This document shows, in pieces, positions 28,220-62,883 of a stretch of 64,000 nt of DNA. This DNA is from a gamma proteobacterium HIMB55 (GTDB lineage Bacteria; Pseudomonadota; Gammaproteobacteria; Pseudomonadales; Halieaceae), in assembly GCA_000227505.4 (NCBI GenBank), contig AGIF02000001.1:826035-890034 (forward strand), given 5' to 3'. Within the stretch, counting starts at the first letter, position 1; every line of letters starts with the position of its first letter. Made by a program: the position numbers and the translations under genes. The notes under the pieces are model-generated. The model did no database searches. It was not told where the DNA came from and worked only from the letters and a program-made list of their open reading frames with translations.

Positions 28220-29506
28220 CTAGGGGTTAGACACCATATAGTCGAGCGTCATCGAGGTTAGTGCTTCAACACCCACGGGAAGTGCCCTCTCGTCGGCGTA
28301 AAACCTAGGCGAGTGGTTCGGGTGGATCAGACTGGGGTCCTCTGGCGCGACCCCCAAAAATAGAAATAAGCCTGGCACCTCGTTGGCAAAATACGAGAAA
28401 TCTTCTGCGGTCGTTGTCTGGGTCGCTTCGATGAAACGATCGCCGGCAACCACTTCCAGCGTTGGCGCCATCTGTCGGTACAGGCTCGGATCGTTGCGCG
28501 TCACACCATAGCCTTGGTCAATAACAACATCTGCTGTTGCCCCTGCGGCTTCTGCAATGTTCTCCGCAGTACGTCTAATTCGCTTGTGGATGTCAGTGCG
28601 CGTAGCTGCATCGAAGGTTCTGATCGTCCCCTCTAGCTCAACCGACTCGGGGATGATGTTATTTCTAACCCCACCTTCGATGCGTCCCACAGTCACAATC
28701 GAGGGGGTGAGCGTCGCATCCAGTTGTCGCGAGACAATTGTTTGCAGCCCGAGCACCACTTGGCTGGCAGTAACGATTGGGTCAACGCCAGCCCAGGGCA
28801 CCGCACCGTGTGTCTGCTTACCCTTGATGGTGATTTGATGGCGATCCGAGGACGCCATAAGACCGCCCGGGCGGGTGGCGATGGTGCCGGCGGGGAAGGG
28901 GAAGACATGCAACCCAAAGACCACGTCTGGGCGCGGATTTTCAAAGGCGCCTTCCATCAGCATAAGCTCTGCACCGCCAACGGAGCCATCGGGTGTTCCT
29001 TCCTCAGCAGGCTGGAAAATAAACTTAACGGTTCCCGGAAGCTCATCACCCATGCCCGCAAGGACTTCGGCTACCCCCATCAAGATGGCGACGTGGTTGT
29101 CATGACCGCAGGCGTGCATAACGCCGACCTCACGCCCTTGGTAAGTGCCCTTTGCTTTTGATGCAAACGGTAGGTCTACGAGCTCTGTTACAGGCAGCGC
29201 GTCCATATCGGCTCGAAGCGCCACAACAGGACCATCACCACCTCGCAAGGTACCGACAACGCCTGTATGCGCAACTTCAGTCTCTACTTCCATACCCAGT
29301 GATCTCAGATGATCAGCGACGATTTTGGCCGTGCGGAACTCTTGATTGCTGAGTTCTGGATGTTGATGAAAGTCCCGTCGCCATGCTACGACACTGGGGA
29401 GGACTTTCTCGATTCTAGCGTCTAGGTCAGCGGGAAGCGCGACCGTAAGCTCGGTCGTCAGAAGGGCTAGGAGCCCCAAGAAAAGCTGTTTTTCGAAGCG
29501 GAACAT
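28220..29506 (-). CDS. Exported M20D-type amidohydrolase/peptidase (HipO-like)
   Basis: The 428-residue protein has a signal peptide (about 1-23, ending TVALP). The hippurate-hydrolase/IAA-amino-acid-hydrolase marks are RRDFHQHPELSNQE, ALRADMDALPV, MHACGHDNHVAILMG (Cys/His/Asp metal site), IFQPAEEG (Glu pair) and TTAEDFSYFANEVPGLFLFLG. It cleaves an N-acyl amino acid or a peptide in the periplasm. Fifteen-base AT-rich repeats lie just upstream (29524-29553). The next gene upstream is a GPH transporter on the same strand, 119 bp away. Confidence 0.92.
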   Translation of the reverse strand: MFRFEKQLFLGLLALLTTELTVALPADLDARIEKVLPSVVAWRRDFHQHPELSNQEFRTAKIVADHLRSLGMEVETEVAHTGVVGTLRGGDGPVVALRADMDALPVTELVDLPFASKAKGTYQGREVGVMHACGHDNHVAILMGVAEVLAGMGDELPGTVKFIFQPAEEGTPDGSVGGAELMLMEGAFENPRPDVVFGLHVFPFPAGTIATRPGGLMASSDRHQITIKGKQTHGAVPWAGVDPIVTASQVVLGLQTIVSRQLDATLTPSIVTVGRIEGGVRNNIIPESVELEGTIRTFDAATRTDIHKRIRRTAENIAEAAGATADVVIDQGYGVTRNDPSLYRQMAPTLEVVAGDRFIEATQTTTAEDFSYFANEVPGLFLFLGVAPEDPSLIHPNHSPRFYADERALPVGVEALTSMTLDYMVSNP

Positions 29507-29523
29507 GGCCTATTTCCTTACGG

Positions 29524-29553
29524 TTATTGCCTTTGCGTTTATTGCTTTTGCAT
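29524..29553. repeat. Two 15-bp tandem units upstream of the M20 gene
   Basis: TTATTGCCTTTGCGT (29524-29538) and TTATTGCTTTTGCAT (29539-29553) differ at three positions, and a third partial unit TTATTGA follows. They lie 18-47 bp upstream of the M20 start. Confidence 0.5.
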
Positions 29554-29625
29554 TTATTGATGAAAGCTACGTTGAGCTCATATTAGACCAAATGAGCCTG
29601 AGTGCAGTTATTGCTTATTTTGACC

Positions 29626-31077
29626 TCAGGCTTCTTGCGCTTTGGATGTCAGGCCAGACAGACGCTCCGCATGCGCTTCCCGGTTTTCTCGTACCTTGGC
29701 GATAAAATATAGGCCAAGGAGCCAAAGCGTGGCTGAGGCCAGTACGGTATAGATCCCTACGGTATCGAGCGTTTCCTGAGATACCAGCCCCGGCTTCGCG
29801 TCCTCGGGCCAAGCCGCGAAGCTCAGGATAAGACCTGCGGAGAAGGCTCCCACACCTGCCATACATTTTTCAGCAAACGAGCGTGCCGCTAGGAGGGTAC
29901 CTTCCATGCGCTTTTGCGTAGCGGCTTCAACTTCTTCAACGGTATCGAACACCATTGATCCAACTGCAGTACTTGCAACGATGATGCTGCAGATCGCAGC
30001 GAGGTGGCAGAACAAGACTGAGCCCAAAATGATGGGTGATTCATTCGAGGGCAATAGATCTAGTACCCGCAGCGAAATAAGCACATTTTCGAGCACCATC
30101 GCAAGCGCGAAAAAGCCAATCGCAGTGTCGCGTTTACCAAATAGGCGCGTGCACATCGGCGCCAGCTTGAGCCCCAAAACGGGTGCAATGAACAGCGTCA
30201 TACCAATAGTAAGGATGTCTGAGGGTTCGAACTCCCAGTAGTAGCTGTAGTAGAACAAGGTCAGATTAGTGAAGAGTCCTGACGCAGCCTTGCAAACGAT
30301 ATAGGCGATGAACAAGATGCGGTAGTTCTGGCTGACGTTGAGTGTCGTCCAGATATCCCTCAAGACATCCATCACCGCTGATCGTTTACTGTCAGGCTTG
30401 GCCAGCTCTGGCATGTGCAGATCGGGTATGTGGCGGTGCGTACCAATCCCTGTAACTAGGATTGCGATGACCATGACAATGCCACAGGCGATACCGTAGA
30501 CCACCCAGGTCTCAGCGTTATAGCGCGCGTCCTCGGTACCATTGATACTGCTGTAAACCACGAAAAGCCAGAGTAGATTCCACATCACCAAGCCGCCCCA
30601 CCAGCCAAACCACATACGAAAGGCGATGAGCGAGCTGCGCTCAACATAGTCTTGTGTGAGCTCTGGACCTAGCGCGGTGCTAGGAATCTCGTAGAGAGTA
30701 ATGGTGGTGCGGATCCCAATACCCATTAACAGCAGATACCAGAATAGTCCCTGATCACTGATTCCTGCGGGTGGATCCCAAATGAGGAAGAAGGTTAGCG
30801 CCACGGGAATGGCAGAGCCGTAAATGAAAGGGTGACGTCGCCCCCAGCGTGAGCGCGTGTTATCCGATAGATATCCGATCAGAGGATCAGAAATCGCATC
30901 GAAAATCAGCATGATCAGAATCGCGAGGCCGGCAAGATCTGGCGCCAGACCGAAGACCTGGACATAGACGAATAAGAGAAAGTAGGCGAATGCGTTGTCT
31001 TTGATTCCGTAGGCTATCGAACCGAAGCCGTACAAGAATTTGGTGCTAAAGGGGAGTGCTGAACCGCCTTCTGTCAT
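29626..31077 (-). CDS. GPH-family sugar:cation symporter (MFS)
   Basis: The 483-residue protein has about 12 membrane segments and the glycoside-pentoside-hexuronide signature: YGFGSIAYGIKDNAFAYF at the N-terminus, DAISDPLIGYLSDNTRSRWG in the TM2-3 loop, GRRHPFIYGSAIPVALTFF, and EIPSTALGPELTQDYVERSS. Transporters of this family move glycosides or related solutes with Na+ or H+. The substrate is unknown; the neighbouring exported hydrolase could feed it but nothing proves this. Start is ATG 31077. Confidence 0.88.
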   Translation of the reverse strand: MTEGGSALPFSTKFLYGFGSIAYGIKDNAFAYFLLFVYVQVFGLAPDLAGLAILIMLIFDAISDPLIGYLSDNTRSRWGRRHPFIYGSAIPVALTFFLIWDPPAGISDQGLFWYLLLMGIGIRTTITLYEIPSTALGPELTQDYVERSSLIAFRMWFGWWGGLVMWNLLWLFVVYSSINGTEDARYNAETWVVYGIACGIVMVIAILVTGIGTHRHIPDLHMPELAKPDSKRSAVMDVLRDIWTTLNVSQNYRILFIAYIVCKAASGLFTNLTLFYYSYYWEFEPSDILTIGMTLFIAPVLGLKLAPMCTRLFGKRDTAIGFFALAMVLENVLISLRVLDLLPSNESPIILGSVLFCHLAAICSIIVASTAVGSMVFDTVEEVEAATQKRMEGTLLAARSFAEKCMAGVGAFSAGLILSFAAWPEDAKPGLVSQETLDTVGIYTVLASATLWLLGLYFIAKVRENREAHAERLSGLTSKAQEA

Positions 31078-31162
31078 TCGTTATTTCTTTTTTATTAGTG
31101 TCACTTGAGACTACTCACAAAGCGCTTGCGGTGCAAAGAAATGTGACAAGCAAAAAATGGAC

Positions 31163-31191
31163 AAAAAAAACCGGGGCATAGCCCCGGTTTT
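31163..31191 (-). terminator. Strong intrinsic terminator of the pcs-mcr operon
   Basis: CCGGGGC (31171-31177), loop ATA, GCCCCGG (31181-31187); on the minus strand it is followed by eight T. It lies 20 bp past the malonyl-CoA reductase stop. Confidence 0.92.
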
Positions 31192-31211
31192 GGTGATCAC
31201 CCTGCCCTGAG

Positions 31212-34200
31212 TTACACCGTAACTGCGTTCCCGCGGAAGATCTTCGAGAGGTAGCGGCTGTCCGAGGGTGCCGGTGCGGGCACCGAGCACTGAAGGACCG
31301 CGTGAACCAGACGAGTCATTTCTTCCTCGAGTTCCTGATCATTAGAAGGCTCCTCTGTGTGAGCGCGACGCGTCAGCTGCACCTGGTTGATGGCTGGCAC
31401 GGTTGGAAGTCGCTCACCCTCTACACCCAGTGTCACTGTGAAGGCGTGGAGTGAGTTCTTTACGAAGAGTGCCAGTGCAAACTCTTCCCGCGTTGATGCC
31501 AATGATGTGTCAGGCGTGATCAATACGATCTGACAGTTCGGCACCAGTGCCGATGTGCGTGCAACGCGGAAGTGGTGTGTAAGTTGATCGTGAACAAGCT
31601 TTCTGAACTCGTGATCACTCAGTACCCGATCCCATGGCTCATTAGCGTTGGCAGCGAGTGCATTCAACGGGAGACGTTCGAATGGGCTGCTCACCACAAC
31701 ATCGTATCCGCCATCGTTGCGGAGGATGTCGTCTAAGCTGCTCTCGAGATCATCACCAATCGCACGGCACTCGATATCGATACCATGAGGATTATCCACA
31801 CTGTGCGTCATCGCATTAGCGGAGTCCTCGGTCTTGGTGAGTACCCACAGTTTCTCAACGTTTTGCGCGAGGAAGCCATTGGCGATATGCGTCAGCTCAT
31901 TACGCATCGAGTCACCGATCAAAACAATGCGCTTGCCCTTAAGCTTTGCAACCTCTGTCTCGTTGGGTGGTAGTAGAAGCTCACCCTCGGTGACTGAACG
32001 ATCGAACTTGAGACCACCGGATGGGTGGAAGGTCTCACCACTCACAATGTCATCGGCGAGGTGGAAGACGGTTGAGAGTCCGACCTGCTCGTCAGTTGGC
32101 ATCTTGTGAAGGTGGAGGCGGTTAAGAATGCCCGTTTCAATCTGCTCAGCCTGCTTTGACGTCTCTGAGAAATCAAAGAAGGGGGCTGGGGCGTCAATAA
32201 AGGTTCCCAAGAATTGCTCGCGCTGCTCATCGCTCAGGATTCCGGCACGCACAAGACGGGTCATGAGCTTCGCTGCGATACCCATATGCATTAGGTAATG
32301 CGATGAGTTACCCATGCCACCTGAGTCCCGGATCTTGAGCACGAGACGTGCAACCGGCTTGGGTAGCGAATCGATGTCGATACTGTCGACAGCATTGCTC
32401 GCAAGCGACATAACGCCGTCAGCATCAAAGCCTGATGACATTCCAGCCAAGATTGCCTTGTGAACTTCGTTCAAACGCTTGTTTTCAAGTACCAGGCGGC
32501 CGCGACGATCGAAGAGTCCAGGCGCTTCGGCTGAGCCCCTCAAGCGCGCACCGTCCACAGGGCCGGGAGCTAGAGCGTTAATCTGAATTTCCGGACCAAG
32601 ATGGCGAGACAGAATTTCGGCCAATACACGCTGCCCCGCTTTAGAGACTGCGTAGTCAGCACGGTTGGGGTAGGCCACAGCGACGTATTTTTCGCCACCG
32701 AAGTAGCTTGATACGTTCAAAATAGAGCCCTTGCCGCCCGCTTTCATCGCAGGACTGAATTTGCGGATAAGCGAGTAGTTCGAGATCAGGTTGGCTTCCA
32801 TGGTGCGATCCCAGTCCGCACGCGTCATATCAACCACCATCTCTTCAGCACCAGAGATACCGGCGTTGTTGATGAGGAAGTCAACATGACCTAATTCAGC
32901 AACTGCATGGTCGTGGAGACGGTCAAGCGCGTCGGGATCACCAACGTCGATACCGCCGAGAATGGTGACTCGTGACTCGGGACGTGGGTAGCCAATATTG
33001 CGCAACTCATCGACGATCTCGTCACGAGCCTCGGCAAGCTTGCCTTCGCTTCGCGCGCTCAAGAGAACACGTGCGCCGGCGATCGCGAGGAAGCGACCCA
33101 ATTGAAGGCCGATGCCCAAGCTGCCGCCTGTGATAACCGCAGTTCGCCCTTTGTGCAGACCCGGAAGTACACGCGAAATAGAGGAGGGCATCGAGCTCTT
33201 ACCCGTTGATCGCTTGATGCTTCGGGGTAGCCAAAGGTTGATCGAGTCCATCTTTCGGACGCGGTTAGTCAGTGTTGCCGCCCAGTCAGCGGCGAAGGTG
33301 AGAGCCTCGCGATCCTCTGTGTCGTAGCGCACCATCTGGTTGGGCTGTACTGCCCATGGAAGTTCGCCGGTATTCGCCAAAGTCTCATCTTCGTGACGCC
33401 AGCCACGAATTAGGGCTTCGACCGAGGCACGAATGATTTCGTTCATCAGGTTGCCATGGCGGTCTGATGGGTTGGTGACGTAGACGATGGCTGGCGGCTC
33501 GCCCTCGGCGAACAGTTGATCCATGTTTCGAGCAAAGGCCGATGCGAAGGCAACAGGCGCAACGACTTCGTCGCGCACAAAGTTGGCCACGTCCTCATCA
33601 TTTGCCGTGGTCAGCGAGTAGCCGTACTCACCGTTTGGCTTCTGTGGGAGCAAAATAACCCCATCGAGACGACCAAAATGATCAGCGATGAGTTGCATTG
33701 AACGATCAACGGACTCACGACGGAGTGGATCAAGATGCGATAGCTGTACGTCGCCAAGATTGCGCGACTGCACTAGTGAGCGTGCATGACCGACCGTATT
33801 CAAATTGCGGAAAGCGAGCATGACTCGCGCGCCACTTTGAATCTGACGTTCTGCAAAGGTGACTGCCTCTTGGTAGTCGTCACCGCCGAGAATCAAAACG
33901 ACCTGACCTGACAGATCCTCTAGACGCTTATCGGGCCATGACACCAGCTGTGAGCGACTCTGCGCTGGCACCTGCATGCCGTTGGTGACCTCGATGTGGT
34001 GACCAGACAGGGCAGACGATTCGTCTGAGGCTAACCAGACGATACCGGAGGCGACGTCAGTCGGGGTTGGGTACTTGTACTCAAGGCCTCCATCAGAAGT
34101 GCGCGTGGTAATCATAAGATCGCGGAATTCTTTACCTGTGCTCCCGGGCTCAACACCCTGTAGCTCGTCCATTCGCGCAAATACGCTCTCGATGCGCTCA

Positions 34201-34862
34201 GACTCGATGGGACCAGGGAAGAGGGTGTTCACACGAATACCTTGCTTCTCACCCAACTCGAGTGCCAGGCCTTTACCCAGCGCGTTGAGGCCCGACTTTG
34301 GCACAACGTATGGGATACGGCCGTAGTAGTGTGTTCGGGAGAAAATCGTGGAAACGTTGATGATGCTGGCGCCCGCAGACATGTGCGGCGCGGCGGCTCT
34401 CGCCATATTCCAGGGAGCACCGAGTAGGTTCATCGCAGAGTCGAACATGGTCTGATCAGAATCCGCAGCGCGCTGCTCTGCTTCTGTGAACGGAATGTCT
34501 CTCAGCGTGAATTTGGGACCAGCCGCACCTGCATTGTTCACTAAGACGTCGATCGGACCGAATGCGGCGACAGTTTTCGCAACGATCTCTCGACAGACCT
34601 CAGGGTCGGCACAGTCACCGGTCGCGCTGACCATGAAGGTTTCCTCGAAACCTTCGCTGACCAGGTCACCTATGAAATCATCGAGTTTGCTCTGATCTCG
34701 ACCAGTCAGCATGACACGAGCACCTTCTCTGAGAAGTTGGCGCGTGATAAAGCTACCAATTGAGCCTGCAGCACCCGTAAGGATGATGCATTTGTTGTCG
34801 AGTCGACGCCCAGCGATGGACTGCGTTAGCAGATCCTGGGGAATATCGCTCATGTCATTCAT
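31212..34862 (-). CDS. mcr: Malonyl-CoA reductase (bifunctional, 3-hydroxypropionate-forming)
   Basis: The 1216-residue protein has two short-chain-dehydrogenase halves in the order of Chloroflexus malonyl-CoA reductase (about 1220 aa). The N-terminal half has TGAAGSIGSF (about 27) and YYGRIPYVVPKSG (YxxxK, about 184); in the family it reduces malonate semialdehyde to 3-hydroxypropionate. The C-terminal half has ITGGSLGIGLQLGR (about 573), NVSSYFGGEKYVAVAYPNRA then DYAVSK (about 736), and makes the semialdehyde from malonyl-CoA with NADPH. The tail HQLTHHFRVAR ... INQVQLTRRA ... FRGNAVTV is characteristic. ATG 34862 overlaps the upstream stop as ATGA, with AGGAG 7 nt before; the frame upstream to 34937 is spurious. 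Confidence 0.96.
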   Translation of the reverse strand: MNDMSDIPQDLLTQSIAGRRLDNKCIILTGAAGSIGSFITRQLLREGARVMLTGRDQSKLDDFIGDLVSEGFEETFMVSATGDCADPEVCREIVAKTVAAFGPIDVLVNNAGAAGPKFTLRDIPFTEAEQRAADSDQTMFDSAMNLLGAPWNMARAAAPHMSAGASIINVSTIFSRTHYYGRIPYVVPKSGLNALGKGLALELGEKQGIRVNTLFPGPIESERIESVFARMDELQGVEPGSTGKEFRDLMITTRTSDGGLEYKYPTPTDVASGIVWLASDESSALSGHHIEVTNGMQVPAQSRSQLVSWPDKRLEDLSGQVVLILGGDDYQEAVTFAERQIQSGARVMLAFRNLNTVGHARSLVQSRNLGDVQLSHLDPLRRESVDRSMQLIADHFGRLDGVILLPQKPNGEYGYSLTTANDEDVANFVRDEVVAPVAFASAFARNMDQLFAEGEPPAIVYVTNPSDRHGNLMNEIIRASVEALIRGWRHEDETLANTGELPWAVQPNQMVRYDTEDREALTFAADWAATLTNRVRKMDSINLWLPRSIKRSTGKSSMPSSISRVLPGLHKGRTAVITGGSLGIGLQLGRFLAIAGARVLLSARSEGKLAEARDEIVDELRNIGYPRPESRVTILGGIDVGDPDALDRLHDHAVAELGHVDFLINNAGISGAEEMVVDMTRADWDRTMEANLISNYSLIRKFSPAMKAGGKGSILNVSSYFGGEKYVAVAYPNRADYAVSKAGQRVLAEILSRHLGPEIQINALAPGPVDGARLRGSAEAPGLFDRRGRLVLENKRLNEVHKAILAGMSSGFDADGVMSLASNAVDSIDIDSLPKPVARLVLKIRDSGGMGNSSHYLMHMGIAAKLMTRLVRAGILSDEQREQFLGTFIDAPAPFFDFSETSKQAEQIETGILNRLHLHKMPTDEQVGLSTVFHLADDIVSGETFHPSGGLKFDRSVTEGELLLPPNETEVAKLKGKRIVLIGDSMRNELTHIANGFLAQNVEKLWVLTKTEDSANAMTHSVDNPHGIDIECRAIGDDLESSLDDILRNDGGYDVVVSSPFERLPLNALAANANEPWDRVLSDHEFRKLVHDQLTHHFRVARTSALVPNCQIVLITPDTSLASTREEFALALFVKNSLHAFTVTLGVEGERLPTVPAINQVQLTRRAHTEEPSNDQELEEEMTRLVHAVLQCSVPAPAPSDSRYLSKIFRGNAVTV

Positions 34863-37800
34863 TGGAGTGCTCCTGCTGATCCTGTATCTACTTTTGTGAG
34901 TGTCTCGCCACGCTCCATCGCGTCGCGAATAGCCCAAGCGCGATAGAGTTCATCGCGAGACTTGAGGTTGGTGCGTGGAAGGGCGTGCATGGCAACGTAA
35001 TTTGCGCCTGCATGACGGTTCTCCCACATTGCTTGGTGCGCCTCAGGTACGCCTTCCATCGGAATGATGGTGGGTGGCAATACACTGATATGTCCTGCCG
35101 CGATGCGCTCCTGCATCTCAGCAAACTCGCGCGCTGTATTGAGGTGTGTTCCGCGAATCTCAGCCGTTGGCATCAGAATGCGTCGCTGACGCATCCAAAC
35201 CTGCGGTGCGTAGAAGCTGAAACGTGCACCTTTCAGATCCTCGGAGTACACGATCTTGCCGACGTTAGGCTTAACCAAAGAGGTCGCCAAGGCCAAACCG
35301 TCGCGCCCTGCGCGTTCAAAGACAACATCGGGAAGTCCTCGCTTATCCAAGGTGTTGCGCAGAAGAGGTGCGATAGCTGAGCCGATGGGCTTCAATGTGC
35401 GATCTGAGAAAGCTCGAACCGATTCTTTGAACGCCGCTGACTCCGTGAATGGGTTAGGCATCTTTTGGAAGGGGCCAGGTGGATCGAATTCATCACCCAG
35501 TCGACGCTCGATTTCCTCGAGGCTGACCACGCCTTTCATCTGCGCCCCGAAACCGAGCGAGGTAACAAACTCACGCTGGGATACGGTGTCGACGAGTACC
35601 GCTACCTGCGCGCCGCGTTGACAGCCCACTTCGATGGCTTCAATGGCAACAGGATCGACAATGCCGTCTTCAGCGCCTGGGCCATAGACCACAAGAAGCG
35701 ATTGACCTGCGCGCAGGCCTGCCTTGGAGAATTGTGCAGCGGGCGAAGAAGCACCAGCCTTACCCATGAAGGTAAAGCGATATCCCGATGAGGCGCCGTA
35801 GAAAGTGAGTACGCCGTTCTCACCGAGTAGCTGGAATGAGCGAGGGAACGCTGTTTCGCCAGCGTGCGAGACCGAGTAGTCAATTTGTCCGCCGACTTGC
35901 TTTTCAGCTTCGGCAACAAAAGGTTCGCCGGCTGCTTCCCATGCGGCCCACTCGTTGGGGTCGTCGGGGACTGCGGTGAATATATCGGCCCAGCGGCTGT
36001 CCTTTCGGTTGATCGCATGGCCACCTACTGCCTCAACGCGTTCACCGCGATCCGCGCTCGACACCATACCCAACGCTGCACAGCTGGAGGATAGGGCGCT
36101 TCGCAAACAGTCGTAACCGGTACCGGTAGACGCACCCTCCACAAAGAGTCGCTTACCGGGCTCGATTGCGAGCGTGTTGTAGAGTGCTCGGTGAATGGTA
36201 CCCATGGTCAGGCCGTAAGAGCCTGCCTCTTCGATGCTGATCCCTGGCAATTTTGCGTGTAGCTGTGGGCCTTGAACTGTAAGGAACTGAGCGTGGCTTC
36301 CGTCGTTACGCTCGTAACCTTGAATACGGAAATCCGCGGCCATCGGGTCGAGACCTTGATCAGGAGCCATGAGCTCGCTTTGTCCTGAGTAAATAGTGAC
36401 GATGTCGCCGACAGAGAGTCGACCTTCACGGACCAAATCTTGGCCGAGCTGAGCAACAATACCGACACCGCCCGAGCCTGTGACCTGAACGTCCGCATCG
36501 CGTGCATCGAACGGCGATACTGGAATGCCTGTAATCGCCCAGATGTCGTTGAAGTTCATCTCTGACGCGAGGATGTAAACCAGCGCTTCGTTTGCACTGG
36601 GCGAAGGTGTGGGGAATACCAGTTCCTTCTCAGCCACTTCTGGGTCACCGTGAAGTGGAGTACCGTCGTCATGCGATCGCATCACGCCATAACCCAATTG
36701 GTACTCGGGAATTGGGGTAATACCCGGGAAGAAGCTCGCGCCCATTGGCAATAGTTTGCCCTCACCAATAAGCGTTGCACGCTCCTCTGCTGATGCGTCG
36801 GGTTGTACCGATTTTGGCTTCGGTGGGAGAGGTGCACTTCGCTTTTCGAGGAAGGCCGAGATGCCGTCAGGACCACATTCTGGGTCGCAAACACCTTGAG
36901 CGAATAGCTCAGCCTCACGTCGCAAGCCAGCCGCCTGACCGTCGCGGGCGCCTGTGAGCATGGCGTCGATGATGAAGTCGACCGGCTTGTTTCGGCCGCT
37001 AGCACGAATTTGCGCGAGTGCTGAAGCCACACCAGGATGAGACAGCAGAGATTCATCGATGGCAACGGCTTGTTCACGCTGCTGTTTGAGCTTCTTCCTG
37101 CGCGCCATTGACACTTTCAGCGAGTCGCCCCCTGCAAAGTGATCTCTCAACGCAGCCATAGCCGCCTCTACGGTTGAGAGACCTTCGGTGTTGACAATGT
37201 CGTCGATCAAGCCGATTTCAAGCGCTTTCTCTGCGTCGATGGTGCGACCATCGAGCATCATTCGCAGCGCTTCCGCAGCGCCATCGGTACCGTGAGCGTC
37301 GAACAACTTTCGTGTGAGGCGCTGTGTTCCACCGTAACCGGGGAGAAGATTCAGATTGATCTCTGGCTGGCCGAATTCGGCGTGTTTTGCTGCGATAACA
37401 TGCGAGCAAGCGAGTACCAGCTCGTTACCACCACCCAGTGCAGGGCCGTTAACCGCTGCGATAATGGGAATATCGAGATTTTCAAGCGTTGCAAATGCTG
37501 TCTGAGCGGCGTTTGGCAGAGTTTGAGCCGACTCAAGATCGCCTTTCTCACCGATTTTCAGAAGCTCTTTAACGTCAGCACCGGCAACAAACGTGTTTCG
37601 TGCGCCTGTTACGACCATCGCAGACAGGTCGTCCTGGTGCGCTAGCTGGGTCAGTGCTGTGTGTAGCTCATCGAGCGTACGCTCACTGAGTGCGTTTACG
37701 GGTGGGCTTGATATCACGACGAGCGCAACAAGGTGTCCCGGTGCGATTTCGTGTGTCTCAACCCTTAGGTACCGCCATGTCTGAACAACGCGACGCGCTT

Positions 37801-40270
37801 CGGTTAAGCGACCAAAGTCTTTCCACTGTGCGACAGCGTTACGGATTTCCTCTACGGATTCGGGATTCTTGAGTGTCGAGATATCACCGAGAGGCTGATC
37901 GAGAAGGATCGATCGCAAGGTCCGTCGCATGTACTTACCTGATCGGGTCTCGGGGAAAGCAGAGACAACGAGGAAGTCAGAAGGTACAGCGGTTGCGCCT
38001 TTCTCTGATCGCACCAAAGACTGCAGTCTTGCAAGATCGTCATCAGAAAGCTTGCGCCCCGCAGCCGCGACCAAGAATGCGACCGGCGTTTCGCCTTTTT
38101 CATCGTGCGGTGCACCGACGACAACAACGTTACCGACCGGGGAGTCCTCGCGCAGTGTCTTGTCGCGCAAGATGGCGCCCTCGATTTCTTCGGTACCGAT
38201 TCGGTGACCTGAAACATTGATAACGTCATCGGAGCGGCCGTGCAGCGTAAACGCGCCATCATCGTGCTGACGGGCGTAATCGCCCTGTGTGTAGGTCAGC
38301 TCGCCATCCCATCGATTAAAATAGACTTCACTGAAACGCTCGATATCGCCGCGCCAGCTGTCCTCAAATAAGTTGCTTGCGTCGCCCCACAGTGTTCGTG
38401 CGAGATAAGGGTAGGGCTGGGTGATGACCAGCTCGCCTTTTTCGCCCGAGTCCGCTGTGCGCCACTGAGTCACTGTGCCGTCGGCAGCTGTTGTCTCAGC
38501 AACACGCACTTCCGCCTGCACCCAGGGAAGTGGCCAGGTCTTTGCGTCAGCAGCAAGCGGCTTGTAACCACCCCAAGGACAACTGAACACGATGCCGCCG
38601 TGTTCCGTCGCCCAGTACGAGTTGATGTAATGCTTGCAGATGTTATCCATCGCGAACTGTTGAACAGCAGGCGATACAGGTTCTGCACAGAAGGTTCCGA
38701 CGCGAAGGGTCGACATATCAAAGTCAGCCATTTCGCGCGCACTGGCTGGATCTGTCATCACAGCCTTCAGGAAAGTCGATCCCGCCTTGAAGAGCGTGAC
38801 CTTGTACCGTTCGATAATCGACGAGAAGCGACCCGCATGGGGGAATAGCGGTGATCCCTCGGCAATCACAGTCGTCATACCTTGCACGAGCGGTGCGGCA
38901 ATGAGATAGCTCTGTCCGGTGATCCAACCGGGATCGCCGATTACGTAAAGAGTGTCATCTTCGGTCGCGTTGAAGACGGTTCGCATTGTGTGGCTCACGC
39001 CGCTTAACCAGCTACCGTGGGTGTGGACCACGCCCTTGGGCTTGCCGGTGGAGCCGGAGGTGTAAATGATGAAAAGCGGGAAGTTGGAATCGACGCTCAC
39101 CACGGGTAGCACTGCATTAAGCTTGGACCAAACATCGGTTGCGCTATCGGTAGACAAATCATCAAATGACGAAAGTCCTAAATGACCTGCAATCGTTGCT
39201 TTTGCAGCATCAACTAAGTCGTTCGACCACTTATCTCGGCTATGCTCGACAATCTCCTGACCGGTGTACTCAACGACAATCACGTTTTCAACGTTGTGCT
39301 TAGCATCTGCTAGCTGGCGCGCTACTGCGGTGCGCAGTTCGGCCGTCATTTCTGCAGCGATCGCATTTTGGCGTGCTAATGAGGCACCCAGCTCGCGCAT
39401 GACGTCTGAACGCTCGAGCGTTATTTCGCCTGCGAGTGCTTCAGAGACATCGCCATAGAGTGTGTCGGCCAAGTCACCCAAGTCATAAGTGGCGAGCACT
39501 GCTTTGAGCGTCTCGAGGGCTGTTTCTCTTGGAATGTAGTTATCGAGCGCAGGATCTGCGTAAGTACCCTTGTAGGCGACAACTTCGGCATTTCGGTAGC
39601 CGCCGTCCGCTGTGATGACCAACTTGGCGCCTGCGTCGTGGATGCGGTCTGACAGGGTCTTCGCTGAGAAACCGCCAAAAACCGGCGTGTAAACAACGCC
39701 CATACGCTGTGCAGCCAGCATGTAGAAAATTTGCTCTGGGATGTTCGGAAGGTTGAACGCGATGCGGTCGCCTGTCACCAGACCGAGGTCTTTGAGTACC
39801 TGCATGCGTGCCACAACTTCCTGAAACAGCACGCGGTAGCTGAAATGCTGCTCGGTTACCGGACCACCGCGCCCATCGTTTTTGGAGGGATCCCAACGAT
39901 CCCCCTCGAAGATGATCGCAGTCTTATCGGCGCGGCCTTGGAGAAGGTGCCGGTCTACAAGGTTGAAGCAAGCATTGGTTTGACCACCTGTGAACCAGCG
40001 GTAGTAGGGTGCTGCGGATTGATCAAGAACAGTTGACCATGGAGTCCATTCGCCGCCCTCGAGTGATGCATTCCCGCCGCGAGAGTCCCAGCCCACCCAG
40101 TCGTCGTCGCTGCCTCTAGCGAGCCATGCACCGCTGGACGGGTTCTGCCAATGAATCTCACGTGACGCAACGTCAGCGTGGAACTGATCGGCGGCGGCTG
40201 TAATGTTACCTCTAAGCGCATCCTCATCGGACTGTGACGCTAATACGCCCCAGGTACGGTCATCGCTCAT
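34859..40270 (-). CDS. pcs: Propionyl-CoA synthase (trifunctional)
   Basis: The 1803-residue protein matches propionyl-CoA synthase of the 3-hydroxypropionate bicycle (about 1820 aa in Chloroflexus). Acyl-CoA synthetase domain about 70-820: FIIYTSGSTGKPKG (about 400), INSYWATEHGG, SDDVINVSGHRIGTEEIEG, ETRSGKYMRR. Enoyl-CoA hydratase domain about 850-1110: FVAGADVKELL, NGPALGGGNELVLACSH, FGQPEINLNLLPGYGGTQR. Enoyl-CoA reductase domain about 1180-1803 (MDR type): ASEMNFNDIWAITGIPVS, VTGSGGVGIV, VSHAGETAFPRSFQLLGE. It turns 3-hydroxypropionate, ATP, CoA and NADPH into propionyl-CoA without releasing intermediates. First gene of the operon with mcr; AGGGAG precedes ATG 40270. Confidence 0.97.
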   Translation of the reverse strand: MSDDRTWGVLASQSDEDALRGNITAAADQFHADVASREIHWQNPSSGAWLARGSDDDWVGWDSRGGNASLEGGEWTPWSTVLDQSAAPYYRWFTGGQTNACFNLVDRHLLQGRADKTAIIFEGDRWDPSKNDGRGGPVTEQHFSYRVLFQEVVARMQVLKDLGLVTGDRIAFNLPNIPEQIFYMLAAQRMGVVYTPVFGGFSAKTLSDRIHDAGAKLVITADGGYRNAEVVAYKGTYADPALDNYIPRETALETLKAVLATYDLGDLADTLYGDVSEALAGEITLERSDVMRELGASLARQNAIAAEMTAELRTAVARQLADAKHNVENVIVVEYTGQEIVEHSRDKWSNDLVDAAKATIAGHLGLSSFDDLSTDSATDVWSKLNAVLPVVSVDSNFPLFIIYTSGSTGKPKGVVHTHGSWLSGVSHTMRTVFNATEDDTLYVIGDPGWITGQSYLIAAPLVQGMTTVIAEGSPLFPHAGRFSSIIERYKVTLFKAGSTFLKAVMTDPASAREMADFDMSTLRVGTFCAEPVSPAVQQFAMDNICKHYINSYWATEHGGIVFSCPWGGYKPLAADAKTWPLPWVQAEVRVAETTAADGTVTQWRTADSGEKGELVITQPYPYLARTLWGDASNLFEDSWRGDIERFSEVYFNRWDGELTYTQGDYARQHDDGAFTLHGRSDDVINVSGHRIGTEEIEGAILRDKTLREDSPVGNVVVVGAPHDEKGETPVAFLVAAAGRKLSDDDLARLQSLVRSEKGATAVPSDFLVVSAFPETRSGKYMRRTLRSILLDQPLGDISTLKNPESVEEIRNAVAQWKDFGRLTEARRVVQTWRYLRVETHEIAPGHLVALVVISSPPVNALSERTLDELHTALTQLAHQDDLSAMVVTGARNTFVAGADVKELLKIGEKGDLESAQTLPNAAQTAFATLENLDIPIIAAVNGPALGGGNELVLACSHVIAAKHAEFGQPEINLNLLPGYGGTQRLTRKLFDAHGTDGAAEALRMMLDGRTIDAEKALEIGLIDDIVNTEGLSTVEAAMAALRDHFAGGDSLKVSMARRKKLKQQREQAVAIDESLLSHPGVASALAQIRASGRNKPVDFIIDAMLTGARDGQAAGLRREAELFAQGVCDPECGPDGISAFLEKRSAPLPPKPKSVQPDASAEERATLIGEGKLLPMGASFFPGITPIPEYQLGYGVMRSHDDGTPLHGDPEVAEKELVFPTPSPSANEALVYILASEMNFNDIWAITGIPVSPFDARDADVQVTGSGGVGIVAQLGQDLVREGRLSVGDIVTIYSGQSELMAPDQGLDPMAADFRIQGYERNDGSHAQFLTVQGPQLHAKLPGISIEEAGSYGLTMGTIHRALYNTLAIEPGKRLFVEGASTGTGYDCLRSALSSSCAALGMVSSADRGERVEAVGGHAINRKDSRWADIFTAVPDDPNEWAAWEAAGEPFVAEAEKQVGGQIDYSVSHAGETAFPRSFQLLGENGVLTFYGASSGYRFTFMGKAGASSPAAQFSKAGLRAGQSLLVVYGPGAEDGIVDPVAIEAIEVGCQRGAQVAVLVDTVSQREFVTSLGFGAQMKGVVSLEEIERRLGDEFDPPGPFQKMPNPFTESAAFKESVRAFSDRTLKPIGSAIAPLLRNTLDKRGLPDVVFERAGRDGLALATSLVKPNVGKIVYSEDLKGARFSFYAPQVWMRQRRILMPTAEIRGTHLNTAREFAEMQERIAAGHISVLPPTIIPMEGVPEAHQAMWENRHAGANYVAMHALPRTNLKSRDELYRAWAIRDAMERGETLTKVDTGSAGALQ

Positions 40271-40363
40271 GCTGTTCTCCCTGTCGAAAAATCGTTGACG
40301 GAGGAGGCTGACTTAGCACGCGTCTGAGCGAAATGCGTTTTGCACTCCGATCGCGTTTGCTAA

Positions 40364-40397
40364 CAAGCACCGGAACCCCGGTTCTCCCCACCGCTTG
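40364..40397. promoter_or_regulatory. Compact stem-loop in the pcs leader/promoter region
   Basis: CAAGC-ACCGG (40364-40373), loop AACC, CCGGT (40378-40382), a 10-nt one-sided bulge, then GCTTG (40393-40397). It is 94-127 bp upstream of the pcs start and could be a leader RNA structure or a protein site. Nothing known was recognised in it. Confidence 0.35.
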
Positions 40398-40479
40398 ATT
40401 ACGCCCAAGGTACGTTTGTCGGTAGGTGCTAGATCACTGAAATTGGTAATTTGCCACATGCCATATGGCGAGTATTTAG

Positions 40480-41454
40480 CTATGAAATTATGAGTGCCTG
40501 TTGGAATAACGCCTGATCGACGTTGCCGCCGGAAAGAATGACGATGAGTTCTTTTTCATCGGGTAGGTTTTGAGGATCTAGCGCAGCGGCAAGTGCGACT
40601 GCACCGCCGGGTTCAACTACCACTTTGAGTGTGTCGAAGGCGGTTTTCATGGCATCCAGGACTGAGTCATCAGATACGGCGAAGCCAGGGCCAGCGTGCT
40701 TTTGTAGTAGGGGAAAGGTCAATTTGCCGGGTGTGGGCGTGACAATGGCATCACAGATCGAGCCTTGCTCCGTCGGGTTGCTGATGCGCTCACCGAGCGC
40801 CAATGACCTAGCCGTATCGTCGAAGCCGTCAGGCTCTACGGTATGAACTCTGATCTCGGGTCGTAACTCGCTGAGCGCCACAGCGATCCCCGAACTCAAA
40901 CCGCCGCCTCCACAACAGCAAAGTAACGCCGTGGCTCGCGCACCCACGTCCGTCATTTGCTCGGCGAGCTCCAAGCCCACGGTGCCCTGTCCCGCAATAA
41001 CGTTTGCATCGTCGTAGGGCTTGATGAGGTGCAGTCCATGCGCCTGCGCCAACCGCTCACCAATCGCCTCGCGACTCTCGACACCGCGCTTGTAATGAAC
41101 CACTGTCGCGCCATAGGCCTTGGTGTTGGCAACTTTATTGGCCGGTGCGTCGTGCGGCATGATGATCGTCGCTTGTGTACCAAAAACTTTGGCAGCCAGC
41201 GCTACCCCTTGTGCGTGATTTCCCGATGAATACGCCACAACGCCACGTTTAAGGGCTTCATTGGGTAGAGCGCTAATCGCCGAACATGCGCCTCTGAATT
41301 TGAAACTTCCAGTCACTTGCAGTGGCTCGGCTTTAATCCAGAGCTTTCGATCTGCGATTGCATCGAGTCTGGGCGAGTTGAGTAGCGGCGTTCTCGCGAT
41401 TTTTCCCTCAATGCGTTGATAAGCACGCTGTATGTCGTTCAAGGTGATGGTCAC
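40480..41454 (-). CDS. Threonine/serine dehydratase (PLP fold type II)
   Basis: The 324-residue enzyme is a catabolic threonine dehydratase/serine racemase type protein without the ACT regulatory domain of biosynthetic IlvA. The PLP lysine lies in GSFKFRGA (about 53), with SSGNHAQGVALAAK (about 77) and the phosphate-binding CCGGGGLSSGIA (about 180). It deaminates threonine to 2-oxobutyrate or serine to pyruvate; racemisation is an alternative. 2-Oxobutyrate would lead to propionyl-CoA, the product of the neighbouring pcs. It is 209 bp downstream in map order but on the same strand as pcs; likely a separate transcript. Confidence 0.9.
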   Translation of the reverse strand: MTITLNDIQRAYQRIEGKIARTPLLNSPRLDAIADRKLWIKAEPLQVTGSFKFRGACSAISALPNEALKRGVVAYSSGNHAQGVALAAKVFGTQATIIMPHDAPANKVANTKAYGATVVHYKRGVESREAIGERLAQAHGLHLIKPYDDANVIAGQGTVGLELAEQMTDVGARATALLCCCGGGGLSSGIAVALSELRPEIRVHTVEPDGFDDTARSLALGERISNPTEQGSICDAIVTPTPGKLTFPLLQKHAGPGFAVSDDSVLDAMKTAFDTLKVVVEPGGAVALAAALDPQNLPDEKELIVILSGGNVDQALFQQALIIS

Positions 41455-41525
41455 GAGTTGTCCTCAGCTACTAATGGGAGCAATCTTGCGTACGCTTGAA
41501 CGATGTCAGGATTGATCCGGTTGCA

Positions 41526-41984
41526 ATGATATTTCGAACTAAGACTAATACACACGGTGGGGCGCGTGCAGTGTTGGATTATCTGCAACACGACGGGGGG
41601 CGAGAAGATGCTGGATTTCGGGGCAGGGCTGACTGCGTCGTTCGGGCCATATGCCTTATCACCGGCGAGTCCTATACCCACGTAAGGCAAGACCTCTCCT
41701 ACTTACAAAAGAAGATGACTGGCGGGCTATACCCATCGATTGCTGACGGGGTCATGACACCCGTTCACTACCTCTACTTAACAAGCAAGGGCTGGGAACT
41801 CACACTGACCAAGGGTACGTATCTCACCGATATTCCGAGAGAGGGAGATCATATCGCGGTGATCCCTCGGCATATGATGGCTGTCCGTGATGGCACAGTA
41901 TGGGATTCGTGGGATTCTCGCTTCAGTCGACGCACAAAAAATGGATACCCTCGGCTTCTGGGCTACTACACACCACCTCAATGA
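41526..41984 (+). CDS. Small protein with papain/C39-like Cys-His-Asp arrangement, function unknown
   Basis: The frame opens at TTG 41496; I choose ATG 41526 (152 aa), though neither start has a well-placed ribosome site. The layout HDGGREDAGFRGRADCVVRAICL (cysteine about 37 from my start), then IPRHMMAVRDGTVWDSWDS (His, Asp) and a final GYPRLLGYY tail is that of a widespread family of uncharacterised proteins, seen in phages and bacterial chromosomes, which I recall as papain-like-fold. Cys, His and Asp are in catalytic order, so peptidase or amidase activity is plausible but unproven. It stands alone, divergent from the threonine dehydratase. Confidence 0.72.
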   Translation: MIFRTKTNTHGGARAVLDYLQHDGGREDAGFRGRADCVVRAICLITGESYTHVRQDLSYLQKKMTGGLYPSIADGVMTPVHYLYLTSKGWELTLTKGTYLTDIPREGDHIAVIPRHMMAVRDGTVWDSWDSRFSRRTKNGYPRLLGYYTPPQ

Positions 41985-42018
41985 GGCCCGAGGCGATTGA
42001 GCCCAGAGGTGCTTTTTC
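41974..42018 (+). terminator. Possible terminator after the papain-like gene
   Basis: CACC-TCAAT (41974-41982) can pair with ATTGA (41996-42000) and GGTG (42008-42011) with a bulge, followed by CTTTTTCTC. The stem is interrupted, so this is tentative. Confidence 0.35.
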
Positions 42019-42550: not shown

Positions 42551-43852
42551 TTATTCATTCACCTTTGAAAGATGCGCCAACGAACCTGCATTTTTCTCCC
42601 AATTTCGGCCATCAAAGGGCTTGTCATAAACCGTTTCGATTGTCTCTGGTTTGATGCAACGCGCATTGACGCTTACGCCATCGGGGTTAGACCGTGGGAC
42701 ATAAAACGACTTAACGCCGCATTGCTTGCAGAAATAATGCTTTGCGAGGCCACTACCGAAGGTATAGAGCGACAGCGAGTCTTGGCCCTTGGTTAACGAG
42801 AACCGACTCTCGGGCACGAGTAGGTGTTGATAGTGATTGATGTTGCAGATGCTGCAGTTACAGGTGTGCGTATCCAGCACAGCAGGGGCTTCGACGGTCC
42901 ATTCGACGCTACCGCAATGGCATCCTCCAGTGTGGGTTACACGGGGCACGTCTTTCGACGCCGCGACTTTCTCGCCTCTGATACGGATCTGCTCAATCAG
43001 CCCCGAAGTATCCCATCGACCACCGCCGTTTTCTTGCACATTGGCGTACTGAGCATCGACCATTGTCGCGATTGGTAGATGAAGACCAAGCCGCTCGGCG
43101 ACGTCGAGCGCAAAACCGAGATCCTTGCGCATCCAGTCGATGGCAAAGCCAAAGTCATACGCTCGCTTTGCCATTGTCGATGCGCGGTTATTCATCTGCC
43201 ATGATTGCGCGGCACCGCCCTGAATTGCCTTTGTGACTTCATCAATATCGAGCCCGGCACACTCGGCAAAATGCAGTGCCTCAGATAGACCCCCGAGAAT
43301 GCCTGCAATGGCCAATTGATTCACCATCTTCGTGGTCTGTCCGCTGCCGACGTCGCCCATTAGCTGAACGTGCTTCGCAAACGAGCGCATGATGGGTTCG
43401 ACGCAATCAAAATGCGCTTGCTTACCACCTACCATGACCGTCAGAACACCGTTCTCGGCGCCGGCTTGCCCCCCTGATACGGGCGCATCCAAGAACTGGA
43501 CACCAATCGCATCGCAGGCGTTGTCGAGTTCGACCGCAAGCTCTCTCGATGTGGTTGTGTGGTCCACCAGAGTGGCACCCTGCGTCATCGTGGACAAAAC
43601 ACCTTCAGAGTCGGACGCGACTGCCCGTACATCGCTATCATTGCCTACGCATAGAAACACAACACTGGCGTCAACAGCGGCCTCGGCAGGTGTCGGTGCT
43701 GAAGTGCCGCCGAACTCGTCGACCCAGGCAAATGCTTTGGCTTCGGTACGGTTGTAAACGCAGACGTCAAAGCCGTTGCGCTGCAGGTGTCCGGCCATGG
43801 GGTAGCCCATGGCACCAAGCCCGATAAAGGCAACTTTTTGCTGACTCGACAT
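42551..43852 (-). CDS. Fusion of beta-hydroxyacid dehydrogenase (HIBADH family) and GFA zinc domain
   Basis: Residues 1-290 are a complete 3-hydroxyisobutyrate-dehydrogenase-family enzyme: FIGLGAMGYPMAGHLQRNGF (NAD site), the substrate motif LDAPVSGGQAGAENG, the catalytic lysine in GSGQTTKMVNQ (about 171) and DWMRKDLGFAL. From about residue 305 the same frame continues into a glutathione-dependent-formaldehyde-activating-like domain with zinc cysteines GGCHCGSVEW (about 310), CNCSICN (about 334) and FCKQCG (about 378). No stop or start separates them. The dehydrogenase half may oxidise 3-hydroxypropionate, 3-hydroxyisobutyrate or a similar acid; the GFA half has no clear reaction. Confidence 0.92.
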   Translation of the reverse strand: MSSQQKVAFIGLGAMGYPMAGHLQRNGFDVCVYNRTEAKAFAWVDEFGGTSAPTPAEAAVDASVVFLCVGNDSDVRAVASDSEGVLSTMTQGATLVDHTTTSRELAVELDNACDAIGVQFLDAPVSGGQAGAENGVLTVMVGGKQAHFDCVEPIMRSFAKHVQLMGDVGSGQTTKMVNQLAIAGILGGLSEALHFAECAGLDIDEVTKAIQGGAAQSWQMNNRASTMAKRAYDFGFAIDWMRKDLGFALDVAERLGLHLPIATMVDAQYANVQENGGGRWDTSGLIEQIRIRGEKVAASKDVPRVTHTGGCHCGSVEWTVEAPAVLDTHTCNCSICNINHYQHLLVPESRFSLTKGQDSLSLYTFGSGLAKHYFCKQCGVKSFYVPRSNPDGVSVNARCIKPETIETVYDKPFDGRNWEKNAGSLAHLSKVNE

Positions 43853-56741: not shown

Positions 56742-57692
56742 ATGAATCCTAATTATTTGGATTTCGAGCAGCCGATCGCTGAGCTCGAGATGAAAATCGA
56801 AGAGCTAAAATCTGTCGTTGATGACTCTGAAATCAACATCAGTGACGAAATCGATCGCCTGAAATCTAAGAGCCATAAGCTGACACAGTCGATTTATCGC
56901 GAGCTTAGTCCTTGGGACATCGTGCGAGTCGCACGACATCCGCTGCGCCCCTATTCGCTAGATTACATTCCACTGGTCTTTGATGACTTTGATGAGCTTC
57001 ACGGCGATCGTCACTTTGGTGATGACAAGGCGATTGTCGGTGGTGTCGCTCGCCTGAATGGACGCCCAGTAATGGTCATTGGTCAGGAAAAGGGCAGAGC
57101 GGTAAAGGACAAAGTCCACCGTAACTTTGGCATGCCGAAGCCCGAGGGCTATCGCAAAGCGCTTCGTCTCATGGAAATGGCAGAGCGTTTCAATATGCCG
57201 GTAGTTACGCTTATCGATACTCCCGGTGCCTATCCTGGTATCGATTCTGAGGAGCGTGGTATTTCTGAGGCGATTGCACAGAACCTCGCTGTTATGTCAC
57301 GCCTGAGAACGCCCATTGTCTGCATCGTTATCGGCGAGGGATCATCGGGTGGTGCGCTGGGTATTGGCGTCGGCGATCATTTGGCAATGCTTCAGTACTC
57401 GACGTATTTCGTCATTTCACCCGAGGGATGTGCCAACATCATTTGGAAGAGCAGCGAGTTTGCGCCGCAGGCAGCAGAGGCAATGGGTGTTACGTCCTCC
57501 ACGCTCGAGGAGCTCGGCATAGTCGATACGACGATCCAAGAACCGATGGGCGGCGCCCACAGAGACGTTGAGGAAATGGCACGGCGAATTCGAGAACATG
57601 TCTCAGGTCAACTGGACCGTCTCTGTGGCACAGATATGGACGAGTTGGTCGAAGCGCGTTACCAGCGGCTGATGGCCTACGGTAGTCACTAA
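56742..57692 (+). CDS. accA: Acetyl-CoA carboxylase carboxyltransferase subunit alpha
   Basis: The 316-residue subunit transfers CO2 from carboxybiotin to acetyl-CoA together with AccD, giving malonyl-CoA. It starts with the standard [19 protein letters not shown], has a helical N-terminus, [66 protein letters not shown] and [13 protein letters not shown]. Its product is also the substrate of the malonyl-CoA reductase at 31212-34862. tilS starts 4 bp later. Confidence 0.98.
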
Positions 57693-57696
57693 TTCT

Positions 57697-58995: not shown

Positions 58996-59017
58996 GCCTA
59001 GGGATACTCTTTGTTAA

Positions 59018-61572
<2,555 letters not shown>

Positions 61573-61575
61573 TAG

Positions 61576-62883
<1,308 letters not shown>

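Follow-up and report, generated by a model that had tools for sequence, protein, structure and literature searches.

A propionyl-CoA synthase/malonyl-CoA reductase gene pair that co-occurs with type-II reaction centres in Halieaceae and may act as a light-linked electron sink

The 64,000-base stretch of DNA analysed here (the window; positions 826,035 to 890,034 of contig AGIF02000001.1, gamma proteobacterium HIMB55) contains two overlapping genes that are predicted to encode a propionyl-CoA synthase (PCS) and a bifunctional malonyl-CoA reductase (MCR). Among genomes of the family Halieaceae these genes co-occurred with those of a type-II photosynthetic reaction centre, and the interpretation that we prefer, giving it close to an even chance, is that MCR and PCS form a light-linked electron sink that co-assimilates CO2 by converting acetyl-CoA and two HCO3- to succinyl-CoA. 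The direct basis of this interpretation is the intact genes, a gene cluster that offers an outlet for propionyl-CoA, a genome in which no lyase of the 3-hydroxypropionate bicycle was found, the reaction centre of the host, and the co-occurrence itself; from these we infer the direction of the route, the substrate of its second carboxylase, its control by light and its flux.

PCS and MCR Are Encoded by Two Overlapping Genes

A previous reading of the window, made without database searches (the sequence-only reading), had described a PCS of 1803 amino acids and an MCR of 1216 amino acids at 31212-40270 as a two-gene operon. Both open reading frames were recovered at full length on the minus strand, and the operon is supported by the overlap of the two genes and by a terminator-like stem after MCR:

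34859..40270, minus strand: PCS, 1803 amino acids, recognised by its domains, the alignment with 6eqo and the conserved catalytic Lys and Glu residues
31212..34862, minus strand: bifunctional MCR, 1216 amino acids, two short-chain dehydrogenase/reductase (SDR) halves, recognised by the alignments with 8hi4 and 8hjw and by both Tyr-x-x-x-Lys sites
34859..34862, minus strand: ATGA overlap of start and stop codons linking PCS and MCR
31167..31191, minus strand: intrinsic-terminator-like stem-loop 3' of MCR, 11 pairs (7 GC) followed by a T-run

The length of MCR is counted from the ATG at 34862, and the mechanically called reading frame, which starts at a TTG, comprises 1241 amino acids. The stem after MCR had the most pairs among 17 terminator-like sites in the 13 kb scanned, under a loose criterion by which 11.3 sites are expected by chance.

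PCS contains AMP-binding, enoyl-CoA hydratase and zinc-reductase domains in one full-length chain, fused in the order CoA ligase, enoyl-CoA hydratase and enoyl reductase, and is predicted to combine 3-hydroxypropionyl-CoA ligase, dehydratase and acrylyl-CoA reductase activities in this single chain. The residues K779, K410, D664, E950 and E970 were identical in 78/78 homologues; K779 is presumably the ligase Lys, and E950 and E970 presumably form the Glu pair of the hydratase. The solved chain 6eqo, whose PDB file bears the name acetyl-CoA synthetase and which we take to be the PCS of Erythrobacter, covers residues 17-1790. MCR could be aligned over residues 19-1216 with 8hi4 and over residues 20-1216 with 8hjw, both deposited as SDR and both, we assume, malonyl-CoA reductases. 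The Ser, Tyr and Lys of the two SDR sites, to which we assign the catalytic roles, were invariant in 27 aligned rows (25 distinct), and one Asn of the second NNAG motif varied among them. The domain motifs are thus intact, as had been stated before. No PCS- or MCR-specific NCBIfam model was present among the best 25 matches listed. The domains and the structure alignments uphold, as predictions, the enzyme identities on which the previously proposed route from acetyl-CoA to propionyl-CoA depends, and both proteins are enzymes of already known kinds.

The genome that holds the window is a single contig of 2,736,988 bases that is 98.5% complete. The nearest relatives of its PCS were found in records titled Halieaceae or Luminiphilus, plus a few other titles, and more distant ones in Pseudohaliea rubra and Chromatocurvus halotolerans. 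In agreement with the OM60/NOR5 affinity suggested earlier, we consider the host a Luminiphilus-type member of the Halieaceae (OM60/NOR5), and its genus group (g1) is taken as Luminiphilus below.

PCS and MCR Co-occur with the Reaction Centre in Halieaceae

The host genome contains two type-II reaction-centre genes. The distribution of PCS, MCR and reaction centre was analysed in 140 Halieaceae genomes, host included, of which 78 were of good quality. A match of at least 59% identity was scored as PCS, the raw tally of 135/140 including acetyl-CoA-synthetase matches; G096 was counted on a fragment, and G025 and G053 (47-50% PCS identity) were counted apart. PCS was present in 54 genomes, MCR in 47 and the reaction centre in 53. 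PCS and reaction centre were found together in 44 genomes, PCS only in 10, the reaction centre only in 9 and neither in 77, which means that PCS occurred in 44/53 genomes with a reaction centre and in 10/87 without one. Among the good-quality genomes the corresponding values were 22/25 and 0/53 for PCS, and 19/25 and 0/53 for MCR. When counted by genus, PCS was present in 5/6 genera with a reaction centre versus 0/22 without (Fisher p 6e-5). G025, a good-quality genome that like G053 stands outside these counts, carries a divergent PCS and has neither an MCR match nor a reaction centre. The link of PCS/MCR with phototrophy is correlative and describes co-occurrence rather than function. No open-access title or abstract opening was found that ties the PCS-MCR pair to the presence of a reaction centre across genomes. 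The sequence-only reading had missed the reaction centre of the host and its co-occurrence with PCS/MCR, as well as the 4-hydroxybutyryl-CoA dehydratase described below.

PCS Loci beyond the Family

Among named genomes, 183 PCS relatives were detected in a scan, and 80 loci were kept. MCR adjoined PCS in 54 of the 80 loci (52 downstream and 2 upstream) and was outside the flanks in 14, while the remaining 12 lay at contig ends and were not judged. The reaction-centre test covered 45 of the 80 loci, i.e. those from outside Luminiphilus plus four from Halieaceae (L144, L145, L168 and L171) that appear to repeat the family genomes G040, G039, G137 and G011. A reaction centre was detected in 35/45 of these genomes, across phyla. 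It was present in 24/25 genomes with PCS beside MCR and in 4/6 with PCS at a contig end; where no MCR was found in the flanks, it was present in 7/7 Chloroflexota and in 0/7 Pseudomonadota. In Chloroflexus aurantiacus the two genes occupy separate loci (pcs Caur_0613, mcr Caur_2614), according to the part of PMC3150298 available, and Chloroflexota are therefore expected to score as unlinked in such a test. The identities of MCR and PCS were correlated over 24 genomes (r 0.95).

A PCS tree, built by a quick method and carrying long-branch warnings, contained one group of Chloroflexota plus aerobic-phototroph-type lineages, a second consisting of a lone-PCS clade without reaction centres, and a third that joined the Halieaceae with Woeseiaceae, Longimicrobiales, Myxococcales metagenome-assembled genomes (MAGs) and others. 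The genomes with a lone PCS amount to one clade plus L191, that is, to few independent events. The Chloroflexus enzymes have the same fused domain architecture as those of the host, and 11 Chloroflexota PCS loci (L172-L174, L176, L177, L181, L182, L184-L186 and L203), all from genomes with a reaction centre, were 49-52% identical to the host PCS; in contrast to the separate C. aurantiacus genes, those of the host overlap, and a bicycle-type lyase was not found in the host. In the Erythrobacter-type aerobic phototrophs, MCR follows PCS in L188 and L197, both with a reaction centre, and their PCS (6eqo) is homologous to that of the host over nearly its full length, although with 49-50% identity for PCS and 41% for MCR they belong to another branch of the PCS tree. 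The available part of a Nat Commun paper names a PCS of Erythrobacter sp. NAP1 (PMC11599936). The lone PCS of Azospirillum and relatives is the same three-domain enzyme with its catalytic residues kept; it forms a clade of 8, in which the 6 named loci with flanks of sufficient length contain no MCR beside PCS and no reaction centre was matched in the 7 named genomes or in G025, the member for which no MCR match was found either.

A Proposed Linear Route from Acetyl-CoA to Succinyl-CoA

According to the interpretation that we prefer, acetyl-CoA carboxylase would convert acetyl-CoA and HCO3- to malonyl-CoA, MCR would reduce malonyl-CoA to 3-hydroxypropionate with 2 NADPH, and PCS would transform the latter into propionyl-CoA at the expense of ATP and 1 NADPH. 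Propionyl-CoA and a second HCO3- would then give methylmalonyl-CoA and succinyl-CoA through a carboxylase/epimerase/mutase cluster located at ~1.10 Mb. The route would consume three NADPH plus ATP. Since the type-II reaction centre would supply ATP from light and spare reductant, the route is envisaged as a sink for electrons that also, fuelled by light, turns acetyl-CoA-yielding substrates into C4 units, rather than as a bicycle supporting autotrophy. The accA gene that had been noticed in the window before was located at:

56742..57692, plus strand: accA, alpha subunit of the acetyl-CoA carboxylase carboxyltransferase, which would supply malonyl-CoA; a tilS-like gene lies next to it

The outlet cluster (~1.099-1.107 Mb) encodes a 569-amino-acid carboxyltransferase, a 924-amino-acid biotin carboxylase/carrier protein, methylmalonyl-CoA epimerase, mutase and MeaB, the last three of which exceeded their NCBIfam cut-offs. 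It is likely to be the propionyl-CoA-consuming route whose absence, according to the sequence-only reading, would have spoken against a role for the pair. The genome search for bicycle genes suggested there had a mixed outcome, with epimerase and mutase scoring over the cut-offs and no HpcH/HpaI lyase. This family (PF03328), which we take to be that of the malyl-, methylmalyl- and citramalyl-CoA lyase of the bicycle, gave 0 matches in the 98.5%-complete single-contig host genome. Because MCR and PCS are intact, the carboxylase/mutase cluster and the reaction centre are present, and the lyase is missing, the linear route is the simplest account of these observations.

The physiology reported for related strains is partly in line with this proposal. 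Light-dependent yield gains on malate are described for L. syltensis, C. halotolerans and P. rubra in the accessible part of Spring and Riedel (PMC3666943). Biotin and B12 are needed by all four strains tabulated in the corresponding part of PMC3679898, which fits the biotin- and B12-dependent steps of the route without proving them. If the light-linked sink is real, the amount of CO2 that coastal photoheterotrophs fix relative to organic carbon would be higher than has been assumed.

Observations That Do Not Favour a Light-linked Sink

Several observations weigh against this interpretation. In the family, 9/53 genomes with a reaction centre lacked PCS, three of them of good quality (G037, G038 and G086), and 10/54 PCS genomes, all 54-87% complete, showed no reaction centre. 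The genome G012 (L077), a 99% complete single contig with a reaction centre and a full-length PCS, gave no MCR match at E 1e-100, and beyond the family the Myxococcales MAG L161 carries the PCS-MCR pair with no reaction centre match. There were only 3 independent contrasts in MCR on the PCS tree, a number at which a sign test has no power, and the co-occurrence may be due to shared descent with joint loss.

With regard to the route, both carboxylase proteins of the outlet cluster scored far below their NCBIfam cut-offs, and propionyl-CoA is therefore proposed as their substrate on account of the neighbouring genes; the PCS/MCR pair, in turn, is not adjacent to the genes of this cluster. Isocitrate lyase was matched in the host genome and in 128/140 Halieaceae genomes, and hence an anaplerotic need for the route is not forced. 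Replacement of the glyoxylate shunt was accordingly rejected as a forcing argument. With regard to regulation, a conserved 28-base element upstream of PCS (see below) had no match within 60 kb around the genes of the reaction centre, and the 200 bases upstream of PCS contained no TGT-N12-ACA site. Shared control of PCS/MCR with the photosynthesis genes thus has no support.

Finally, Spring and Riedel (PMC3666943) report that reduced substrates repressed pigment and that light gave no gain in the two strains examined with pyruvate; they attribute these results to the lack of a redox valve based on CO2 or nitrogen fixation. The records of C. halotolerans DSM 23344 (L171) and P. rubra DSM 19751 (L168) nevertheless carry an adjacent PCS-MCR pair. 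The presence of the pair in strains considered to lack a valve implies either that there is a valve after all, though a weak one or one under different control, or that the pair has another role. If the light-linked sink is real, the 2013 conclusion that OM60/NOR5 phototrophs have no CO2-fixing redox valve would need revising, because at least two of its three strains carry the pair.

Alternative Roles of the Pair

A wider proposal, possible in our view though somewhat unlikely, regards MCR-PCS as a mobile general accessory of type-II phototrophs in several phyla, i.e. a light-driven sink for two bicarbonate per acetyl-CoA in aerobic phototrophs to which no CO2-fixing redox valve has been ascribed, which in the subclade of the host would have been extended to a complete chimeric 3-hydroxypropionate/4-hydroxybutyrate (3HP/4HB) cycle by a dehydratase that resembles 6vjr more than the clostridial enzyme.

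A chimeric 3HP/4HB cycle that confers autotrophy or full mixotrophy on the subclade of the host, taken by itself, is in our estimate unlikely. The bacterial fused MCR and PCS would provide its first half, succinyl-CoA would be reduced to 4-hydroxybutyrate, and 4-hydroxybutyryl-CoA dehydratase would then regenerate two acetyl-CoA. The host contains at ~2199547-2201070 a 507-amino-acid homologue of this dehydratase that matched 6vjr (1.5e-218) and 1u8v (1.2e-166), presumably the Nitrosopumilus and the clostridial enzyme, respectively, and it shares with 6vjr the lack of one residue that 1u8v has before the last Cys. It holds the CxxxC and His...Cys motifs, which we assume to be the iron-sulfur ligands, as do five relatives inspected. 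At a threshold of at least 62% identity, the dehydratase was scored in 31 of 52 matched genomes, some of these matches being partial; the 21 weak matches (33-36%) were left out, and the 3 of them inspected, all from the host genus, were without the Cys ligands. The dehydratase is thus present in 31/140 family genomes and in 13/57 of genus g1, all 13 of which also carry PCS, and among good-quality genomes its presence went with that of PCS (p 0.012) and of the reaction centre (p 0.0025). However, 34/47 PCS genomes of the genus, including 7/16 of good quality, gave no match of at least 62%, the association with PCS was weak over the 140 genomes (p 0.099) and also by genus (p 0.29), and a family-type PCS was missing in 15 genomes with the dehydratase.

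For the reduction of succinyl-CoA, a candidate CoA-acylating aldehyde dehydrogenase (~599453-600871) had as its best match 8cei, a succinate-semialdehyde dehydrogenase (acetylating), at 4.8e-98; this SucD-like gene, however, occurs in 97/140 genomes, and its best NCBIfam match, below the cut-off, is an acylating sulfoacetaldehyde dehydrogenase. The version of the subclade (599453-600871, L126) is 75% identical to that of genus g19 versus 64-68% to most versions within its own genus, a sign that transfer may have replaced the original gene, and the adjacent gene encodes a curcumin-reductase-type oxidoreductase. The dehydratase gene, in turn, is divergent from genes for an esterase-type hydrolase, a Baeyer-Villiger-type oxygenase and an acyl-CoA carboxyltransferase (~2.1946-2.2011 Mb; L004:11557-16208 and L003:604-2127), and as an alternative it might serve a lactone or cyclic-ketone route to 4-hydroxybutyrate.

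A 3HP/4HB cycle has been published for Luminiphilus, being proposed in the part of PMC9802188 available for eight Luminiphilus MAGs, most of them with bacteriochlorophyll genes. These MAGs appear to belong to the same genus-level group as the host, and the subclade of the host has candidates for the key enzymes, which makes the cycle possible there. The dehydratase was matched in 13/57 genomes of the genus, and the majority of its PCS genomes yielded none; for this reason the cycle was rejected as a general role of the pair. The distribution of PCS and dehydratase restricts to part of the genus the autotrophy by 3HP/4HB that was claimed for Luminiphilus in 2022. As a separate observation, L004:1424-3109 (minus strand) encodes a formate--tetrahydrofolate ligase that scored above its cut-off; a reductive glycine pathway has been proposed for three other Halieaceae (PMC10100682, as far as its available part goes).

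Assimilation of 3-hydroxypropionate derived from dimethylsulfoniopropionate (DMSP), beta-alanine or malonate semialdehyde, in which PCS would lead to succinyl-CoA and MCR would run backwards or as a valve, is quite improbable. Such a role would suit the divergent PCS that, in Azospirillum and other genomes where no reaction centre was matched, have no flanking MCR, and also the divergent lone PCS of G025 (L082:7193-13828), which lies ~12 bases after an iron-type alcohol dehydrogenase gene, an arrangement that suggests use of 3-hydroxypropionate or propanediol. Luminiphilus is, moreover, among the DMSP degraders predicted in the accessible part of PMC13310141. This role, however, does not need a co-transcribed MCR, yet MCR adjoins PCS in most of the loci kept (54/80), and no importer of 3-hydroxypropionate was recognised among the annotated neighbours in the window. 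Since L. syltensis uses propionate and not acrylate, according to the part of PMC3679898 available, the use of external acrylate, put forward in the sequence-only reading, is unlikely.

The supply of propionyl-CoA for odd-chain fatty acids or polyhydroxyalkanoate has a very small chance of being the main role of the pair. C. halotolerans stores polyhydroxyalkanoates (PMC3679898, available part), but none of the annotated neighbours in the window was recognised as a polyhydroxyalkanoate gene, and such a supply leaves the link with the reaction centre unexplained. The complete Chloroflexus bicycle, to which the earlier reading had pointed and for which MCR, PCS and the carboxylase/mutase cluster are present, has practically no chance and was rejected, because the lyase steps are without a candidate in the host while PF03328 was matched in 113/140 genomes searched and 10/14 control genomes; it is thus excluded here, unless an unrelated lyase serves.

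Flanking Genes and Regulatory Sequence

The region around the pair contains the following further features:

40431..40458, minus strand: 28-base element upstream of PCS, consensus TGTGRCAAATTACCAAWTTYGGTGATCT, a possible promoter or regulator site
40480..41454, minus strand: serine/threonine-dehydratase-type gene upstream of PCS, a neighbour with all matches below cut-offs
29626..31077, minus strand: GPH/MelB-type cation symporter gene, a neighbour beyond the terminator

The 28-base element was found in 17 aligned rows of the subclade (11 distinct), with 0-1 mismatch in 10/11 and 4 mismatches in L133. It had one match in the window, the next best site showing 9 mismatches, the same as in shuffled sequences. 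No sigma-70-like promoter site was detected at 29000-42000 of the window, where shuffles of the stretch average 7.4.

A homologue of the dehydratase-type gene adjoins PCS only in loci of the host's own subclade among the 80 loci, and among 20 proteins encoded next to PCS at nine other loci there was no common partner. The GPH symporter gene occupies the same position in the own-subclade loci, with 83-95% identity, and L158, L169 and L170 contain a 36-38% homologue in the opposite orientation. Further upstream, 42551-43852 (minus strand) of the window encodes a 3-hydroxyisobutyrate-dehydrogenase-type protein (PF03446 and PF14833) with a C-terminal glutathione-dependent formaldehyde-activating (GFA) domain, and this GFA-fused protein stays near PCS/MCR in the loci of the subclade. 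At the other side of the window, accA forms with the tilS-like and enolase genes an ordinary housekeeping run (56742-62883, plus strand).

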